NCBI RefSeq assembly: GCF_002221505.1
Contig: NZ_CP011037.1
Coordinates: forward strand, 310,001-374,000
Length of the DNA: 64,000 nucleotides
Reading direction: 5' to 3'
Origin: Pseudoalteromonas nigrifaciens
GTDB taxonomy: Bacteria; Pseudomonadota; Gammaproteobacteria; Enterobacterales; Alteromonadaceae
Shown in pieces: positions 13,287-21,158 of the stretch (position 1 is the first letter of the stretch; every line of letters begins with the position of its first letter). The notes beneath the pieces were generated by a model. That model had not been told where the DNA came from, did not search any database, and saw only the letters and a list, made by a program, of their open reading frames with translations. Both the position numbers and the translations under genes were made by a program.

Positions 13287-13469
13287 ATGATTGATATAAC
13301 AGTACTCGCGGTATTTATTCCCACCTTCTTTTTTGTTTCGATCACTCCAGGTATGTGTATGACATTAGCCATGACGCTAGGCATGAGTATTGGCGTGCGG
13401 CGCACTTTATGGATGATGCTTGGCGAGCTACTCGGCGTTGCTAGTGTTGCCGTTGCTGCAGTTGCGTAT
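13287..13469 (+). pseudogene. LysE/RhtB-family amino-acid exporter, 5' part split by IS21-type element
   Basis: The first 61 codons (MIDITVLAVFIPTFFFVSITPGP-like start, here ITPGMCMTLAMTLG) are the typical N-terminus of LysE/RhtB exporters with the membrane segment and the TPGP-type motif. The frame then runs into the insertion sequence. The remaining exporter frame resumes at 16061. Joining codon TAT at 13467-13469 to TAT at 16061-16063 with one TAT lost restores an uninterrupted reading frame (AVAYAAVLGVAS). The gene is inactivated in this genome. Confidence 0.88.
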
Positions 13470-13542
13470 TCCGGTGATGGTGAACACCGATTCCGGTTTT
13501 ATCGTGAACACTTAAATTCCACGCATTGGGTTCATGACATTT

Positions 13543-14298
13543 TTAACCTAAGTGTTCACGATGGTCAATTTTAGATTGAATTTTTCTCATAGACTCCCCC
13601 TTTAATTTTATCCGATGAGCATTGTGCATTAGTCGATCTAAAATGGCATCGGCTAAGGTATTATCGCCGATGGATTGATGCCATTCTTCGGTGGGTAATT
13701 GACTGATGATGGCGGTTGATGAACTGCCGTGCCTATCATCCATGATCTCCATTAAGTCATTTCGTTGTGCCGCTTTAAGTGGCTCAAGCCCCCAATCATC
13801 TAAAACGAGTAAGTCGATCTTAGCGAGTGACTGTAACATTCGACTGTAAGTGCCATCTGCTTTGGCTTGTGTCAGCGCAAGCATCAACCTTGAGAGTCGG
13901 TAATATTTAACGCTGTAGCCTTTCATGCATCCTGTATGCGCAAGCGCACAAGTGATATAGGTTTTACCGCTACCGCAAGGGCCTGTGATGAGTAAGTTTT
14001 GTGATTTATTCAGCCAATCACATTGCAGTAGCGATGCCATCATCGATTGATTGAGACCTCGCGGGTGATGATAATCTATGTCTCTGGCGTTAGCGGCTAA
14101 TTTAAGTTTTGCCGCTTTAAGTAAGCGTTGTTGTTTTCGGCTCTCTCGGTCTTGGGCTTCACTGTCTGCTAGCAGTTGTAGTCGCTCATCGAAGGACAAC
14201 CCTTCATAAGTACTTGGTTGTTCTATTTGGCTCACTAAGGCGTTGGCCATACCACTGAGTTTGAGTTGACGAAGCTGAGTTATCGTTTGTTCTAACAT
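13543..14298 (-). CDS. istB: IS21-family transposition helper ATPase IstB
   Basis: IstB is an AAA+ ATPase that selects the target and activates the IstA transposase. Walker A is GPCGSGKT and Walker B is IDLLVLDDWG; the N-terminal helical region QLRQLKLSGMANAL is typical. Length 251 is normal. It starts 14 bases after the istA stop, so the two are co-transcribed. It appears intact, which with intact istA suggests the element may still be able to move. Confidence 0.95.
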   Translation of the reverse strand: MLEQTITQLRQLKLSGMANALVSQIEQPSTYEGLSFDERLQLLADSEAQDRESRKQQRLLKAAKLKLAANARDIDYHHPRGLNQSMMASLLQCDWLNKSQNLLITGPCGSGKTYITCALAHTGCMKGYSVKYYRLSRLMLALTQAKADGTYSRMLQSLAKIDLLVLDDWGLEPLKAAQRNDLMEIMDDRHGSSSTAIISQLPTEEWHQSIGDNTLADAILDRLMHNAHRIKLKGESMRKIQSKIDHREHLG

Positions 14299-14312
14299 AG
14301 AATTTCCTTACC

Positions 14313-15857
14313 TTAATGGAAGCTTTTAGGACCACGGATATTTTCATGGGATTGTGGCAATAACGTCGACGGCTCTTCTTGCGTTCGCGGCAATTTATCT
14401 TGGTTGCTACTGAGTATGTCTTTGATATGTTTTAACCGATATAAACTGTATTGATTGGCTATCGCACAGGCGTTATTGAGCCGATCGGCGGGATAGCTTC
14501 TTGATAGGTTGAGTAAGCCTAAGCACACACGATACGCTTGTTCTTCATGTTGTTTCTGTGCCAATTGTGCTTTCACCCAGAGCAAAACGTCATCTCCAAT
14601 ATCTTTCGCCCAATTCATTAAACGCCCTGGTGACCATTTATGATGCTTCTCATGCTTTACAGGCATGTGCTCGGATGTGGTGGTCATGCCCGGATGATAT
14701 TTTCTCGGGTGACTGGTGATGCGTTTATGCTTGAAATAAGCCTCAATCAAGTTGTCTTTGGCATGAAGTTCAAGCTTTTCACCCACCAAGTGATGGGGTA
14801 CCGAGTAAAGATGGTTATCATACTGAACGTGATAATCAATATTCACTTTGACGTGTTTAATATCCGTGAATTGATAAGCTAGTTTGGGCATGGGCGCGAG
14901 GGCGGGTTTGTCGATTGACTCGAACCATGATTGTCGTGTCCCACTCAGTTGCTTAAAGGGCTTATTATTGACCTCAAGCAGTAAGGCTTTGATGCAATGG
15001 TTTAGCTCAGCTAATGAGAAAAAGGTTTGGTGTCGTAACTTGGCGAGTATCCAGCGTTCAATGATTTGCACGCCCACTTCGGCCTTGGCTTTATCTTGTG
15101 GTTTTCTGGGACGAGCAGGCACAATCACGGTGCCATAATGCGCGGCCAATTGCTGATAACTCGGGTTAACATCAGGGTCGTAGCGACACGCTTTACTGAC
15201 ACCACTGCGTAAATTATCGGGGATAACCATGTCAGGTATACCGCCGATAAATTCAAATGCTCGCACGTGACTGCCGATCCAGTCGGGTAGACTTTGGCTC
15301 CAGGTTGCTTCACAAAATGTATAATTTGATGCGCCCATCACCGCCACGAATATCTGGGCGAACTTCACTTCACCCGTCGCATTACAAACAATGGGCATCG
15401 TTTGACCCGCATAATCGACAAAGAGTTTTTCTCCTGCTTTATGCACTTGTCGCATCGAACGTTTTTGCTTTTTAAGCCAGGTCATATAGCGATCGCAGAA
15501 CTGAGAATAGCTGTAACAACGATTCGGATATTGCTGAGTATATTCTTCCCAGAGTAAGTTCTTGGTGACGCCTTTGCCCGTTAATTCTTTTCGAATGGCT
15601 GGCCAATCTGGCACTTCAAATCGCTGGGATGGCCGAGTGTCGGCGCGAGGATAGAACTGACTAGCAAGCACAGAATCATCAAGCTCGTCGGGCAGTGGCC
15701 AACTTAACGATAAAGCTCTGGCTTTAGTGAGTAGTTTTTGAATACCACCGACACTGATCTTAGTGCTGGCACTTATTTTTCTGACACTGAGTTGGGCAGC
15801 AAAATGTAGCCTCAACACTTCTCGAATTTTACGCATTGTGATCCTCTTAGTCGCCAT
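14313..15857 (-). CDS. istA: IS21-family DDE transposase IstA
   Basis: A 514-residue transposase with N-terminal helix-turn-helix regions (about 1-60, LRLHFAAQLSVRKISASTKI) and an RNase H-fold integrase core. Catalytic acids are visible as Asp in KLFVDYAGQTMP, Asp in MVIPDNLRSGV and Glu in DKAKAEVGVQIIER. A C-terminal beta-barrel-like domain follows. It is upstream of istB in one transcript. No frameshift is seen. Confidence 0.95.
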   Translation of the reverse strand: MATKRITMRKIREVLRLHFAAQLSVRKISASTKISVGGIQKLLTKARALSLSWPLPDELDDSVLASQFYPRADTRPSQRFEVPDWPAIRKELTGKGVTKNLLWEEYTQQYPNRCYSYSQFCDRYMTWLKKQKRSMRQVHKAGEKLFVDYAGQTMPIVCNATGEVKFAQIFVAVMGASNYTFCEATWSQSLPDWIGSHVRAFEFIGGIPDMVIPDNLRSGVSKACRYDPDVNPSYQQLAAHYGTVIVPARPRKPQDKAKAEVGVQIIERWILAKLRHQTFFSLAELNHCIKALLLEVNNKPFKQLSGTRQSWFESIDKPALAPMPKLAYQFTDIKHVKVNIDYHVQYDNHLYSVPHHLVGEKLELHAKDNLIEAYFKHKRITSHPRKYHPGMTTTSEHMPVKHEKHHKWSPGRLMNWAKDIGDDVLLWVKAQLAQKQHEEQAYRVCLGLLNLSRSYPADRLNNACAIANQYSLYRLKHIKDILSSNQDKLPRTQEEPSTLLPQSHENIRGPKSFH

Positions 15858-16060
15858 ATCCCTTCCTCAGTAATACAAAAAGGAAATAGCTTAACAAAGT
15901 AATTAATAATCAATGCGTTGAAATTGTACTGGTTTGGTGTGAACACCGATTCCGGAAAATCAGTCAAAAGTGTTCACGATAAAACCGGAATGAGCGTTCA
16001 CGCTAAAACCAGAACGGGTGTTCACGATGGGCCGGAATCACTGTTCACGATGCTCCGGAA

Positions 16061-16513
16061 TATGCAGCAGTGCTAGGCGTGGCGAGTATTATGCTTTATT
16101 ATCCAGAGGCGTTTGCTATTTTAAAGTGGGTAGGCGGTGCATACTTAATTTACATTGGTATAAATATGTGGCGATCTAAAGGAAAAATGTCGGTAAATAC
16201 CAGCAATGCCACAGCTGTAAGTCGCCAGTCACTGTTTACGCAAGGCTTTGTAACTGCAATTGCCAATCCAAAAGGCTGGGCGTTTATGATCTCATTACTA
16301 CCACCATTTATCAGCATTGAACATGACGTAGCCCCGCAACTATTAGTGTTGTTAAGTGTAATAATGGTTACCGAATTTTTAAGTATGTTGGCTTATGCAA
16401 CAGGTGGAAAAAGCTTACGATTATTTTTAACACGCGGTAATAACATCCAGTGGATGAATCGCATTGCGGGCAGTTTAATGGTCGCCGTTGGTGTATGGCT
16501 GGCTTTAGGGTAG
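16061..16513 (+). pseudogene. LysE/RhtB-family exporter, 3' part
   Basis: This is the continuation of the exporter gene interrupted at 13469. The frame begins YAAVLGVASIML at the insertion edge and contains the family's LKWVGGAYLIYIGINMWR segment, then three or four more membrane segments and the NPKGWAFMISLLPPF motif. The GTG at 16070 could be read as a start, but no ribosome binding site precedes it and the protein would lack its first two helices. Confidence 0.88.
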
Positions 16514-16520
16514 TGCTGAC

Positions 16521-16550
16521 ATACTGTAGAGTAACTTTACTCTACAGTAT
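16521..16550. terminator. Bidirectional terminator between lysE fragment and LPP20-like gene
   Basis: ATACTGTAGAGTAA pairs perfectly with TTACTCTACAGTAT with a two-base loop, followed by TCATTTT. It lies between two convergent genes. Confidence 0.8.
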
Positions 16551-16566
16551 TCATTTTAATATGGAG

Positions 16567-17130
16567 TTAGTTTGCTAAGTTATTTAACTCTTCAGTGGTT
16601 TGTTGCAATCTAAATTCACGGTAAAGCATATCTTCATCATTAGGGCTCAGATTTTTGCCTGACTTTTCAATCAACTTATCGAAAATAGGCTTAGTATTTT
16701 CCATAATAACTAATGCACATAGTTGCTTTTGGTTATTTATTTGAGCAAAGCTGACTTCTTTTGCAATACTACCAACAAGGCTTTCTTCGGCTGTTTGGCG
16801 GCTTACTTGTGTAAAAGAACTTTGTGTTTGTACAGAATCTTGCTGCTGCATTTGCTTATTTATTAAGGTATCAAGAACTTGAGCTTTGCTATTAATTTGT
16901 GTTGCTAAATCAGCGCGTGCGCTAGCTACGGCCTGTGCTCTACTTGCTGCCATATTACCACTCCAAGGTACACAGCTAGATGAGGCTAACCCTCCTTCAG
17001 GTGCGCTTGGCATTAAAACCCAGCTTGGTACAGTATCAGCATTACTAAAGGGGGTTGATTGTGGCTGTTGAGTTGATCCACATGCGCTTAAAAAGAAAAT
17101 AGTGGCTATTGGTAAAAGTTTATTTTTCAT
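16567..17130 (-). CDS. LPP20-like lipoprotein, last gene of the envelope operon
   Basis: The preferred start at 17130 gives a lipoprotein signal (MKNKLLPIATIFFLSACGS, lipobox LSAC) and has AAGGAAATC as ribosome binding site. The mature part has a PSWVLMPSAPEGG segment and an AQAVASARADLATQI helix, the pattern of the LPP20/FlgP-type fold, which forms ring or tube structures at the outer membrane in known cases. The C-terminal tail (DKLIEKSGKNLSPNDEDMLYREF) has a partial paralogue at 21274-21429. The gene overlaps the upstream transglycosylase gene by 11 bases. The exact role is unknown. Confidence 0.75.
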   Translation of the reverse strand: MKNKLLPIATIFFLSACGSTQQPQSTPFSNADTVPSWVLMPSAPEGGLASSSCVPWSGNMAASRAQAVASARADLATQINSKAQVLDTLINKQMQQQDSVQTQSSFTQVSRQTAEESLVGSIAKEVSFAQINNQKQLCALVIMENTKPIFDKLIEKSGKNLSPNDEDMLYREFRLQQTTEELNNLAN

Positions 17131-18394
17131 GTTTGATTTCCTTATTATTAAGGTTCCATTGATTAATATTTGCTTGGTACTGCTGTTCAAGCTTGTTTAC
17201 TTTCTTAAGGTATTTTTTTGTTTCATCATAGGGTAAGTTTGCAATTAAGTGACTGTAAACACTTTCACTATCTAGGTCGTTTATAATAGAAATAGCACGA
17301 TTAATATTTCGGCTTTTATCAGTATTAAACGCTTTAGCTACATTTCCTGCACCAGTATTGTAAGCTGCAATTGCGCAATATTTACGACTTATTGGATCTT
17401 TTATTTTCCGTAAATAACTTTTGTCTAAAATAGAAATGTAAGCAGATCCATAAGTGATATTGGTATCAGGATCAAAAAGCTCCTCTGGTGTTGGCGCTAT
17501 ATCTTTTTTAAAGTGTTTTCTTGCTACATCTAAACCTGCTGAATTAGGTACAATTTGCATTAGCCCAAATGCGGGAATATGCGACTTAGCATTTGGATTA
17601 AAAGATGACTCAGCATGCGAAATTGCTAATAACAGAGGTAGTTGTTGTTGCTCGTATTGTAAGTAAAAGTTTAAGTAAGGACTCACTTTTTTATGTAAAT
17701 ATTCGTCAGGGAGTGAAAAAGTACGAGAAGTAATATTTTTATAAGTCACATCATTATCTTTGGTGCTGAGTGATGTGTTTAATTTTTCAATACGCTGCTG
17801 TTTTTCTATGGCTAATTGCTGTTTACTTTGTATTGCTTGTTGAGGCTTTAATTGAGTGTTTTTATCAACACTGCTTAGCGACTGTTCATACTGTGTAGTT
17901 ATTTCTTGTGCTAGCGTTTCTTGGTTCTGTTTTAACTCTTTTTGACTTTTAATTTCACTTTTTGAAATTGCTAAGCTATTTTCTAATTCTTGTTTAGTTG
18001 GGCTTATTAATTCTAAAGACGAGGCTAGATTTTTATCAGTTATTAATGTCTCAGCTGCTTGTCCAAGCGTACTGTGAGAATCTAATGTTTCTACAGTAAC
18101 CGTCATGCTTTGTTCGTCAATAATTATGCGACTTTTTAGGTCTGCACTGTAAACGACCTGCTTTAATGTGCTGCTTTGGATGGGCACAGACCAATGCTTA
18201 AGTAATGAATCTCTAAAAGAGTCGTAATCAGCTAAATAAGCTTCTCTAAAATTTGCGTAATCTTGTTTATATTGCTTGCTGAAACTGGTTGCTTCTAAAA
18301 GTTGCTGCTTTTTAAACTCAGTAAAAGTGTTCGCACTTATATTTGTTACTGTAAAAGTACAAAGTAGTGGTAAAAACAATGAAAAATGTCGCAT
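17120..18394 (-). CDS. MltC-like lytic murein transglycosylase
   Basis: Lytic transglycosylases cut the glycan strands of peptidoglycan, often to make room for envelope machines. A signal peptide (MRHFSLFLPLLCTFTVTNISA) is followed by an N-terminal domain like that of MltC (ANFREAYLADYDSFRDSLLKHW), a Gln/Lys-rich coiled middle (about 145-215), and an SLT domain at about 235-385. The catalytic Glu is in ISHAESSFNP; GLMQIVP and AIAAYNTGAGNVAKAF are the other family motifs. Unlike MltC it has no lipobox. It begins 8 bases after the upstream gene and overlaps the next one, so it belongs to the operon. Confidence 0.88.
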   Translation of the reverse strand: MRHFSLFLPLLCTFTVTNISANTFTEFKKQQLLEATSFSKQYKQDYANFREAYLADYDSFRDSLLKHWSVPIQSSTLKQVVYSADLKSRIIIDEQSMTVTVETLDSHSTLGQAAETLITDKNLASSLELISPTKQELENSLAISKSEIKSQKELKQNQETLAQEITTQYEQSLSSVDKNTQLKPQQAIQSKQQLAIEKQQRIEKLNTSLSTKDNDVTYKNITSRTFSLPDEYLHKKVSPYLNFYLQYEQQQLPLLLAISHAESSFNPNAKSHIPAFGLMQIVPNSAGLDVARKHFKKDIAPTPEELFDPDTNITYGSAYISILDKSYLRKIKDPISRKYCAIAAYNTGAGNVAKAFNTDKSRNINRAISIINDLDSESVYSHLIANLPYDETKKYLKKVNKLEQQYQANINQWNLNNKEIKHEK

Positions 18395-18402
18395 TTTGTT
18401 CC

Positions 18403-19191
18403 TTAAAAATAAACGTTAAATTCATATTTAGTAAGTAGTGAATCAGCAATATATTCGCTTGGTAATTCTGAGATTGCGTAAAAAGTTGCTTTATTGGTTG
18501 CTAATTTTTTGGTGATAGGTGAAGTAAGCGTTTGCTCGTCACTCATCAAAGTTACTTCATCTAATTTGAATAGATCCTCAGCAACATTTCCCTTTAGCTC
18601 AGTATAATCACTAAAGCCACTCGTTAAGTTAAGAAACATACCTTGGGCATTGAGTTGTTTTACTTGCATGTAGTATTTAATGTTATTACTGTCATAAAAA
18701 AATTCATTACTATCAGGCACTATTTGTTCAAGACTGTGCTCTTTTAATTTAAAGTTACTAAACGGTACCTTAGGTGAGAAATCGTCAACTAAGCTTTTGT
18801 CATAGGACAGGCTATGGACAACAATAGCTACTATGCGAGTTTCTTTATTGATTAAAGTTAGGAGGTATTTATCTTCTTTATAATAACGATATTCGTAACG
18901 TTCATCAATTTTTGAAGTTTTAATGACTTGCGGTATACCTATTTGTTTTTGCGCATATGGAAGGTAGTTACCTATGTCTAACATTGAAATCTTTTTTTCT
19001 TCAATTTTATTTGTAAAGTTAGTAATAAATCCATTATATGCTTCTATTGATAGAGCTTTAGTATCTGCCCAGTTACCTAAGCCCATAAGCGCCACCATTA
19101 ACAAAATAAAATATTCTTTAAGTTTTTTTATAGTTGTTTTTTTTTCTTCAGTAACTTGTTCTGTAGGTGTGCTGTTATTTTCCACGGGCAT
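18403..19191 (-). CDS. Unknown one-TM protein of the envelope operon
   Basis: A 262-residue protein with a charged N-terminus, one hydrophobic segment at about 27-42 (YFILLMVALMGLGNW), and a long soluble part predicted to lie in the periplasm. It resembles the poorly described ETEC_3214-type proteins, but I hold that only loosely. No catalytic motif is visible. It lies between the LPP20-like gene (20-base gap) and the transglycosylase gene (8-base gap), so it is probably the inner-membrane component of the same assembly. Confidence 0.7.
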   Translation of the reverse strand: MPVENNSTPTEQVTEEKKTTIKKLKEYFILLMVALMGLGNWADTKALSIEAYNGFITNFTNKIEEKKISMLDIGNYLPYAQKQIGIPQVIKTSKIDERYEYRYYKEDKYLLTLINKETRIVAIVVHSLSYDKSLVDDFSPKVPFSNFKLKEHSLEQIVPDSNEFFYDSNNIKYYMQVKQLNAQGMFLNLTSGFSDYTELKGNVAEDLFKLDEVTLMSDEQTLTSPITKKLATNKATFYAISELPSEYIADSLLTKYEFNVYF

Positions 19192-19211
19192 TTCATTCCT
19201 TAAAATATGCG

Positions 19212-20045
19212 TTAATTAACGGGAGTATCTTTTAGTTTAATAATATCTTCAATTAATAGTGATATGCTGTCTTCATTTGCGATTTGTAGTAATTGCTGCG
19301 TTGATCTTTTAGAAAAGCTAATACCTTTACCTTGATAATGATCCTGCCAAAGACGCTTGTTAGTGTGAGTAATTATTTCTAACTGTAACCTAGTAAAAAC
19401 TTTATTTTGACTACTCTTAACAATTGAGTTTTTTACATGGTAATAAACGTCGCAGGCTGAGTCTGTGATATTAAAGCCATTTTGAATAAACTTAGCGGTT
19501 AATAAGCTTTTAACTTCACCTGCTTGCGAGCCAGTACTTTTTATGCAGTTATTCTTAGCGGACAGTTTTGACTGTGCCTCTTGCTTTTTTTGTGCTTGCG
19601 CTTTTTGTATATCTGTATGGTTTATTGTTACTCCTGCATAAACCACGCAGTTATTTTTATCTACCCAACGTTCGAATATTTTAGCGTTTTTTAGCAGCTG
19701 GTCGCTTGTTATTTTAGCTGTAGAATTAAACTGTAAGTTACTTATGGAATTAGAAGAGAAGAGTTTATTTTCCTCTTTAATTTCTATTTCAGTTTTAAGA
19801 AGCTTTGTGAGTGCTTTTCGAGCTTCAAGTGCAGAACGGCGTTCGTCAATTGACTTTAGTCCAGAGCATTGAGAAGAGCCTGAGCTAACATAGAGGGTGT
19901 CGGTTACTTTATCAACGCCTATCCAATCAGGGGTTTGAGCTTGTGTTGGGTAGTAATGGGCACAGCTGCAATTAGAGTGTGTTTGTGCCTCTACTGTGAA
20001 AGAAAATAAAAGCATAGATATAAAAAGAAGTAATTTCTTATTCAT
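19212..20045 (-). CDS. Exported LPP20-like protein of the envelope operon
   Basis: 277 residues with a signal peptide (MNKKLLLFISMLLFSFTVEAQ). Mature residues include TQAQTPDWIGVDK and RRSALEARKALTKLLKTEI, the arrangement seen in LPP20-type proteins, then a Lys/Gln/Ala-rich helix at about 140-165 and a second globular half. No lipobox is present, so it is probably soluble in the periplasm. It may pair with the CsgG-like lipoprotein encoded just before it. Function not established. Confidence 0.7.
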   Translation of the reverse strand: MNKKLLLFISMLLFSFTVEAQTHSNCSCAHYYPTQAQTPDWIGVDKVTDTLYVSSGSSQCSGLKSIDERRSALEARKALTKLLKTEIEIKEENKLFSSNSISNLQFNSTAKITSDQLLKNAKIFERWVDKNNCVVYAGVTINHTDIQKAQAQKKQEAQSKLSAKNNCIKSTGSQAGEVKSLLTAKFIQNGFNITDSACDVYYHVKNSIVKSSQNKVFTRLQLEIITHTNKRLWQDHYQGKGISFSKRSTQQLLQIANEDSISLLIEDIIKLKDTPVN

Positions 20046-20059
20046 GTTTCAACCAAATA

Positions 20060-20077
20060 GCCCAGCATTTGCTGGGC
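20060..20077 (-). terminator. Small hairpin between the first two operon genes
   Basis: GCCCAGCA and TGCTGGGC form an 8-bp stem in the 42-base gap between the CsgG-like and LPP20-like genes. On the minus strand it is followed by TATTTGG, not a long T-run, so it may stabilise or reduce, rather than end, the transcript. Confidence 0.45.
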
Positions 20078-20087
20078 AAAGTTTGTT

Positions 20088-21158
20088 TTATAAACGATTG
20101 TGGTTATTATTTTGAGCTAGTTTAGCATTATGTTTGTTACGATCTAACAAACGCTGCTCACCTTCAATAATATACTTTAGCTCATCAACATCCATAGTTA
20201 GATTATGAGACTTTTGATAATATGCAAGGGCTAGCTCTAGGTCCGCTGCTCTTTCTGCACAAACAGCATTATTATAATTAATTGCTAGTGATTCAGAATA
20301 AATACTTTGAGCTCTACTAAACATCTTACAGGCGTTATCTGGCATATCTTTTTCAGCAAACTCTATTCCCATATCCAGCATTTTTTCAGCATCGTCGGAC
20401 ATATCAGAATCATCCGATTCCATTAATTCAACTAATTTTGTAACGCTATGCGGGGCAACATCTTGAATTAGTTCTTCTGATATCTGAGAAACTGCTTGCC
20501 CTAATAGCGCACTATCAGAATTGTGAGGATCATCACCTTCGCAAACTTTACTGCTTACCTGTTGGCTGTATCGTTTTGTGAAAATGATTTCACCAGATTC
20601 AACAGATATTGCTTTTGGCTCTAGTATTACTTTAGCTAGTTTTTCAGAGCATCGAACTTTAACATCACGAGAGCGTTTGCATTTATACCATTTGTCACCT
20701 TTTTCAACACATTCACTACGCTCTTCGTAATAGGTTGATGTTTCAACATCAGAACCATACAGAGCGGTTACCAAAGTGTCTGCGCCAGTAAGTTTACCTA
20801 ATCGAGTACGATTATTTGAGTTTGTTAGGTCACCTTCATTAAAGCGCTGTTGAGCAATTACTTTATCAAGCGCTGCTTGATCAACAAAAGTAAAGTATGG
20901 CTTGTCATTAACGCGAATAGCTGAAAGGTTACTTTCAATTAAGTTCACTGCATTTGAAGAGCTTCTATCGGTAATAACAGCAATACGTTTTATTTTATCG
21001 GTGTTATCTTGATTAGCTGGGCGCATGTAGGTTACAGGTAGTTTTGCTGTTGTTAGTAGATTATTTAAGCCACCAATCATGCCGTTAATTTTACTATCTA
21101 AAGCACAACCAGATAACAAAATGCTAGAAATTACAGCAAACTGAATTCCTTTTTTCAT
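20088..21158 (-). CDS. CsgG-like lipoprotein with C-terminal TPR, first gene of envelope operon
   Basis: The lipoprotein signal is MKKGIQFAVISSILLSGCALD (lipobox LSGC). Residues 55-245 have the CsgG/LpoB-type fold: IKRIAVITDRSSSNAV, then FVDQAALDKVIAQQRF and LGKLTGADTLVTALYG, which are the usual landmarks. A Cys-rich insertion (SECVEKGDKWYKCKRSRDVK) interrupts the fold. The C-terminus (about 262-345) has TPR-like helices (ACKMFSRAQSIYSESLAINYNNAV). CsgG forms a nine-subunit outer-membrane channel and LpoB activates cell-wall synthases, so the role could be channel or regulator. It heads a five-gene operon. Confidence 0.78.
   Translation of the reverse strand: MKKGIQFAVISSILLSGCALDSKINGMIGGLNNLLTTAKLPVTYMRPANQDNTDKIKRIAVITDRSSSNAVNLIESNLSAIRVNDKPYFTFVDQAALDKVIAQQRFNEGDLTNSNNRTRLGKLTGADTLVTALYGSDVETSTYYEERSECVEKGDKWYKCKRSRDVKVRCSEKLAKVILEPKAISVESGEIIFTKRYSQQVSSKVCEGDDPHNSDSALLGQAVSQISEELIQDVAPHSVTKLVELMESDDSDMSDDAEKMLDMGIEFAEKDMPDNACKMFSRAQSIYSESLAINYNNAVCAERAADLELALAYYQKSHNLTMDVDELKYIIEGEQRLLDRNKHNAKLAQNNNHNRL

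Follow-up and report, generated by a model that had tools for sequence, protein, structure and literature searches.

The window analysed here is a stretch of 64,000 nucleotides from Pseudoalteromonas nigrifaciens (contig NZ_CP011037.1, positions 310,001 to 374,000), and our subject is a row of five genes on its minus strand, at 16567–21158, which we denote P1 to P5. An initial annotation, made from the sequence alone, had described them as an operon with gaps of 42, 20 and 8 bases and an 11-base overlap, and had read it as an uncharacterized trans-envelope machine. The open reading frame (ORF) coordinates reproduce this layout exactly, with the gaps lying between P1 and P2, P2 and P3, and P3 and P4, and the overlap between P4 and P5; for P5 we take the ATG at 17130 as the start, the mechanical ORF beginning at a TTG at 17190. 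We find that the five genes are a real, conserved and often reshuffled cassette. Its constant part is P3 with P4, usually accompanied by P5; the CsgG part can be replaced by another or be missing. The genes are as follows.

20088..21158, minus strand: P1, CsgG-like lipoprotein with a tail resembling tetratricopeptide repeats (TPR) (Pfam CsgG, AlphaFold 2 (AF2) model, Foldseek)
19212..20045, minus strand: P2, LPP20-type protein that is exported, lacks a lipobox and has a second part at its C terminus (LPP20 match at E 6e-4, family profile)
18403..19191, minus strand: P3, protein with one transmembrane (TM) segment, an ETEC_3214 domain and a BLIP/BamE-like fold (NF043066, AF2, fold matches)
17120..18394, minus strand: P4, MltC-like lytic transglycosylase with a signal-like N terminus and without a lipobox (SLT domain, NF008670, Glu262, homology of the N-terminal part)
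16567..17130, minus strand: P5, LPP20-type lipoprotein with the lipobox LSAC (LPP20 below the cut-off, Ferrimonas counterpart above it)

A transglycosylase and its membrane partner

P4 carries an SLT domain (86.2 bits) and is the genome's best match to the MltC model NF008670, at 150.5–150.9 bits, far under the model's cut-off of 375. Its motif glutamate, Glu262, is invariant in all 15 aligned rows, E. coli MltC included, and by analogy with MltC we take it to be catalytic. The MltC-type N terminus proposed by the initial annotation is borne out: a profile of the N-terminal part of P4 scores that of E. coli MltC at 23.2 bits, as against 6.5 for the best of 1,000 shuffles, and hhalign gives 84% over 52 columns, indicating that part of the MltC N-terminal domain is shared. 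P4 therefore has in common with MltC the SLT domain and part of the N-terminal domain, and differs from it in lacking a lipobox, in having a long insertion between the two domains and in scoring under the MltC cut-off. With five SLT places in the 4.27-Mb genome, our arithmetic would place an SLT gene within roughly 5 kb of an unrelated gene in about 1% of cases, as against the 33 of 37 genomes in which P4 lies with P3 (see below).

For P3, the earlier description of a one-TM protein with a periplasmic part stood as regards the single TM segment, and had missed the ETEC_3214 domain, which P3 carries at 108.7 bits against a cut-off of 35 (NCBIfam NF043066). The predicted fold matches BLIP-type and BamE-like binding domains; the predicted local distance difference test (pLDDT) score of the AF2 models ranges from 80.6 for the best down to 69.2. 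P3 would sit in the inner membrane with this domain in the periplasm. By the curated model, P3 is a member of the ETEC_3214 family of E. coli. According to PMC5554520, the virulence regulator CfaD activates an E. coli member of that family, and the copy in strain H10407 lies within a genomic island. By megablast, 231 of 5,426 complete E. coli genomes carry ETEC_3214, always on the chromosome. Unlike P3, the H10407 copy has no transglycosylase (P4) neighbour; at L016:3093-5048, in the island, it is divergent from an adjoining GTPase-family gene.

The CsgG-fold and LPP20-type proteins

P1, annotated earlier as a CsgG-like lipoprotein with TPR, passes the Pfam CsgG model (PF03783; 26 bits against a cut-off of 20.8) and has the lipobox LSGC; besides the lipobox residue it contains six cysteines, present in all eight relatives compared. 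By sequence the TPR scores 14.3 bits, under the Pfam cut-off; in the AF2 model it is clear. Five AF2 models of P1 range in mean pLDDT from 80.7 down to 55.5. The best Foldseek matches to the P1 model are CsgG chains (E 4.8e-5), ranked before LpoB, with weak matches to an LPHT-ring chain (E 1e-4) and to FlgT (E 1.5e-3). The model also resembles PelC, which is among the best matches by VIA-align 2; TPR chains fill the top 50 of that search, so that the absence of CsgG there is uninformative. The monomer model has one long hairpin. The charged share is 22–25% in CsgG's own hairpin regions and 18–42% in the P1 strands, and the charge and face statistics do not discriminate between pore and no pore. 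There was no match to the LpoB model PF13036 at E ≤ 1, a scan of the genome contigs with P1 alone returned zero relatives, and searches of PDB sequences with profiles of P1 (A8) and of its counterpart C4 (A12; see below) returned nothing sensible.

On P2 and P5 themselves, the LPP20 model (PF02169) scores 20.6 and 16.3 bits, under its cut-off of 25.9. Their Ferrimonas counterparts exceed that cut-off, at 36.1 and 28.6 bits, and the P2-family profile finds PDB 4kzs (‘LPP20 lipofamily protein’) at E 2.6e-14. Judged by sequence through these relatives, the P2 and P5 families are LPP20, as first proposed. The P2 counterpart in Pseudoalteromonas sp. HL-AS2 (L005:16114-16947) is labelled ‘TonB-dependent receptor’ in RefSeq, which looks wrong for a 277-residue LPP20-type protein.

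Conservation and reshuffling of the cassette

We counted the P3 family in genome samples drawn by tool, and found it in 3 of 369 genomes of the class, 7 of 108 of the genus, 29 of 394 of the order and 3 of 299 of the phylum. After overlap, all the P3 genomes of those samples form a set of 37, in which locus L005 represents the window's own; L006 (= L055) and L016 (E. coli) belong to the 39 clusters compared and are excluded from the 37. A cluster comprises genes on the same strand with gaps of less than 300 bases. P2 and P5, which fall in one similarity cluster, were separated at 240 residues, and one CsgG-role gene, at L051 (P1 profile E 2e-3), was counted by hand.

The gene-neighbourhood check suggested by the initial annotation shows that the module co-occurs. 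P4 lies in the P3 cluster in 33 of the 37 genomes and P5 in 31, the three genes being found together in 31. The CsgG role is filled in 23, by P1, by its distant counterpart C4 (profile–profile 89.8% over 243 columns) or by the L051 gene, and the two-part LPP20 role in 24, by P2 or its distant counterpart C3 (97.2% over 248 columns); all five roles are present in 20. P3 stands alone in four, and two loci (L011 and L059) hold minimal P3–P4 pairs. Sixteen arrangements, differing in order or content, occur among the 37 loci. Pseudoalteromonas sp. HL-AS2 has the same operon, with 100% P1 identity, on a 680-kb replicon; P. xiamenensis has all five genes in the order P5-P3-P4-P1-P2, with 38% P1 identity. 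At E ≤ 1e-10, four of the 394 genomes sampled from the order match the P1 profile, and each of these carries P3; the distances of P3, P4 and P5 correlate (r 0.79–0.91, uncorrected for phylogeny). We reject chance neighbourhood because the genes co-occur across many gene orders.

A scan of named genomes, with a pattern that lies within the P3 TM motif and favours window-like P3, yielded 14 loci (five in Shewanella, three in Ferrimonas, two each in Pseudoalteromonas and Rheinheimera, and one each in Aestuariibacter and Oceanisphaera), at least seven of which belong also to the 37. The P3 cluster includes P4 at all 14 and P5 at 12.

Other parts join the module more rarely. C7, C8 and C9 form an alternative set in 4 of the 37 loci (L064, L068, L081 and L082), C8 weakly resembling LpoB (E 0.075); the same three also occur at L086–L088, in or beside the module and, in L088, on the opposite strand. 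C11 and C12 join in 3 of the 37 (L072, L074 and L080), upstream of C3, P4, P5 and P3, and the scan of a C11 protein revealed a caspase domain (PF00656, 48 bits). Gene families foreign to the module each recur in at most five of the 39 clusters, and thus no cargo gene is evident. Convergent to the minimal P3–P4 pair of L011 lies a 163-residue gene (L011:9598-10089) that appears TIR-like by eye.

Comparison with known systems

The initial annotation had set the operon apart from curli export and from the FlgO/FlgP/FlgT flagellar rings, and candidates for both were located elsewhere in the genome. A separate curli-like operon on the same contig has its own CsgG (294.6 bits) and contains, as named by eye, genes resembling CsgE/CsgF and one for a long repeat protein. 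No curli genes lie beside P1, and with that separate operon in place we reject membership in curli export; what P1 shares with the curli exporter CsgG, the partner of CsgE and CsgF, is the CsgG domain and fold.

FlgP is, like the P2 and P5 families, of the LPP20 type. FlgT_M and LPP20 matches over the cut-off lie close together on contig 1 (near C1:857-859 kb), and three of the four FlgO matches lie near C1:851-853 kb. In the module we found no FlgO or FlgT_M domain, the matches at E ≤ 1e-3 being on contig 1 only; as this is another contig, we reject membership in the flagellar ring. That ring is the nearest analogue: PMC7990780 describes an H-ring of the outer-membrane lipoproteins FlgO and FlgP with periplasmic FlgT, having roles in outer-membrane penetration and anchoring, and the cassette likewise combines predicted outer-membrane lipoproteins with a predicted periplasmic partner. 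It differs in having its own transglycosylase and an ETEC_3214 anchor, and in not being at a flagellar locus. From LpoB/LpoP and PelC, P1 differs in having both folds in one chain, and the module in having no synthase or Pel family (by similarity clusters only). The cassette is apparently undescribed: in agreement with the initial annotation, we found no description of this five-gene set in a literature search that left most subscription papers and preprints outside.

Proposed mechanism and alternatives

Gene content, co-occurrence, the shuffling of gene order, the predicted folds and the conserved P4 motif are consistent with a wall-cutting enzyme that is tethered to the membrane and whose location or activity is governed by CsgG/LpoB-fold and LPP20 proteins assembled at the outer membrane, a reading to which we give an even chance; the physical complex, the membrane sides, the control of P4 and the purpose of the wall gap are what we infer. 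The operon would encode a single accessory complex of the envelope, with a peptidoglycan-cutting enzyme of its own at the core. P3, held in the inner membrane by its single helix, may dock P4, the putative exported MltC-like lytic transglycosylase, on its periplasmic BLIP/BamE-like domain. The lipoproteins P1 and P5, predicted to reside in the outer membrane, would form with periplasmic P2 an assembly beneath that membrane, of LPP20 and CsgG/LpoB-fold domains, fold classes that also occur in the flagellar FlgO/FlgP/FlgT ring. By positioning P4 or activating it, the assembly might confine opening or remodelling of the wall to a single controlled site, probably to let an envelope structure pass or to anchor it. 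The constancy of P3 and P4 and the exchangeability of the CsgG part fit controlled wall cutting as the task, whereas a pore system should keep its pore constant. The trans-envelope machine of the initial annotation is thus supported in part, by the conserved module; its emphasis on a pore goes beyond the P1 model, which resembles CsgG, PelC and LpoB alike.

One alternative is a secretion or assembly machine, in which P1 or its counterpart would be a CsgG-like multimeric pore, the LPP20 proteins would gate or adapt it, P4 would clear the wall and P3 would recruit a substrate encoded elsewhere. The CsgG score of P1 above the cut-off, the CsgG chains heading its Foldseek matches and the ring former PelC among those of VIA-align 2 speak for such a pore; the single long hairpin of the monomer model, the 14 of 37 genomes in which the CsgG role goes unfilled and the lack of a recurrent cargo gene among the 39 clusters speak against it, and we consider it unlikely. 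We are similarly doubtful of a ring-free arrangement, an autolysin controlled from the outer membrane, with P1, P2 and P5 as LpoB/LpoP-type activators of P4 or of a synthase and P3 as its tether or restraint: the clusters show no recurrent synthase family, Foldseek ranks CsgG over LpoB for P1, and the TPR matches are generic.

A cassette that targets the wall for antagonism or phage defence would suit the patchy distribution (P3 in 7 of the 108 genomes of the genus), the caspase-domain gene in 3 of the 37 loci and the island setting of the H10407 copy given in PMC5554520. It is nonetheless very improbable, as none of the five proteins matches a PADLOC 2.0.0 component model at E ≤ 1, neither P1 nor P3 was found in phage records and a scan of viral contigs with P3 patterns was empty; on the same three results we reject a defence system. 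Phage lysis was rejected because, of the five proteins, only P4 matched PHROGs (11 families).

A bolder form of controlled wall cutting, which we hold to be improbable, is a horizontally moving trans-envelope machine of a new class, in which an ETEC_3214 anchor and an MltC-like enzyme would bore the wall under a CsgG-fold/LPP20 ring and let an unknown surface structure or substrate pass, the ring subunits being swapped between lineages and the drill kept. The comparisons suggest that, beyond flagella and curli, a transglycosylase has acquired lipoprotein partners whose folds resemble those of flagellar rings, and these exist in several versions. For the uncharacterized ETEC_3214 family, a conserved partner in the form of a wall-cutting enzyme provides a testable function, and so compact a cassette could make it testable how wall cutting stays confined beneath an outer-membrane complex.

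Intergenic features and neighbouring genes

Further features lie in intergenic DNA at the locus or in relatives.

20060..20077, minus strand: hairpin in the P1–P2 gap (7-pair GC stem)
L084:6043-6096 and L085:1867-1920: hairpins in the P1–P2 gap of relatives (folding z)
16521..16550, no strand assigned: inverted repeat between the operon and a convergent LysE-type gene fragment, terminator-like for the plus strand (consensus scan only)

The P1–P2 gap folds with z = -3.6, and the hairpins between P1 and P2 in the two Pseudoalteromonas relatives are of unlike sequence and similar strength (z -3.4 and -3.0). Two Shewanella loci have a P1–P2 spacing of only 3 bases and no hairpin there. Dosage control by the hairpin would be a guess. 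Terminator-like repeats in the consensus scan were no commoner than in shuffles (4 against a mean of 3.7), nor were promoter-like sites more frequent.

The LysE-type exporter gene (window 13287–16513) is split by an IS21-like element with istA/istB-type ORFs (13543–15857), which its N- and C-terminal parts flank; at the equivalent place in HL-AS2 it is intact (L005:19646-20263). Different versions of the module lie near the same LysE-type gene in different Pseudoalteromonas (L005, L052, L053 and L054), and the L052 version is flanked by a LysE-type copy on both sides. The site may be an exchange hotspot.

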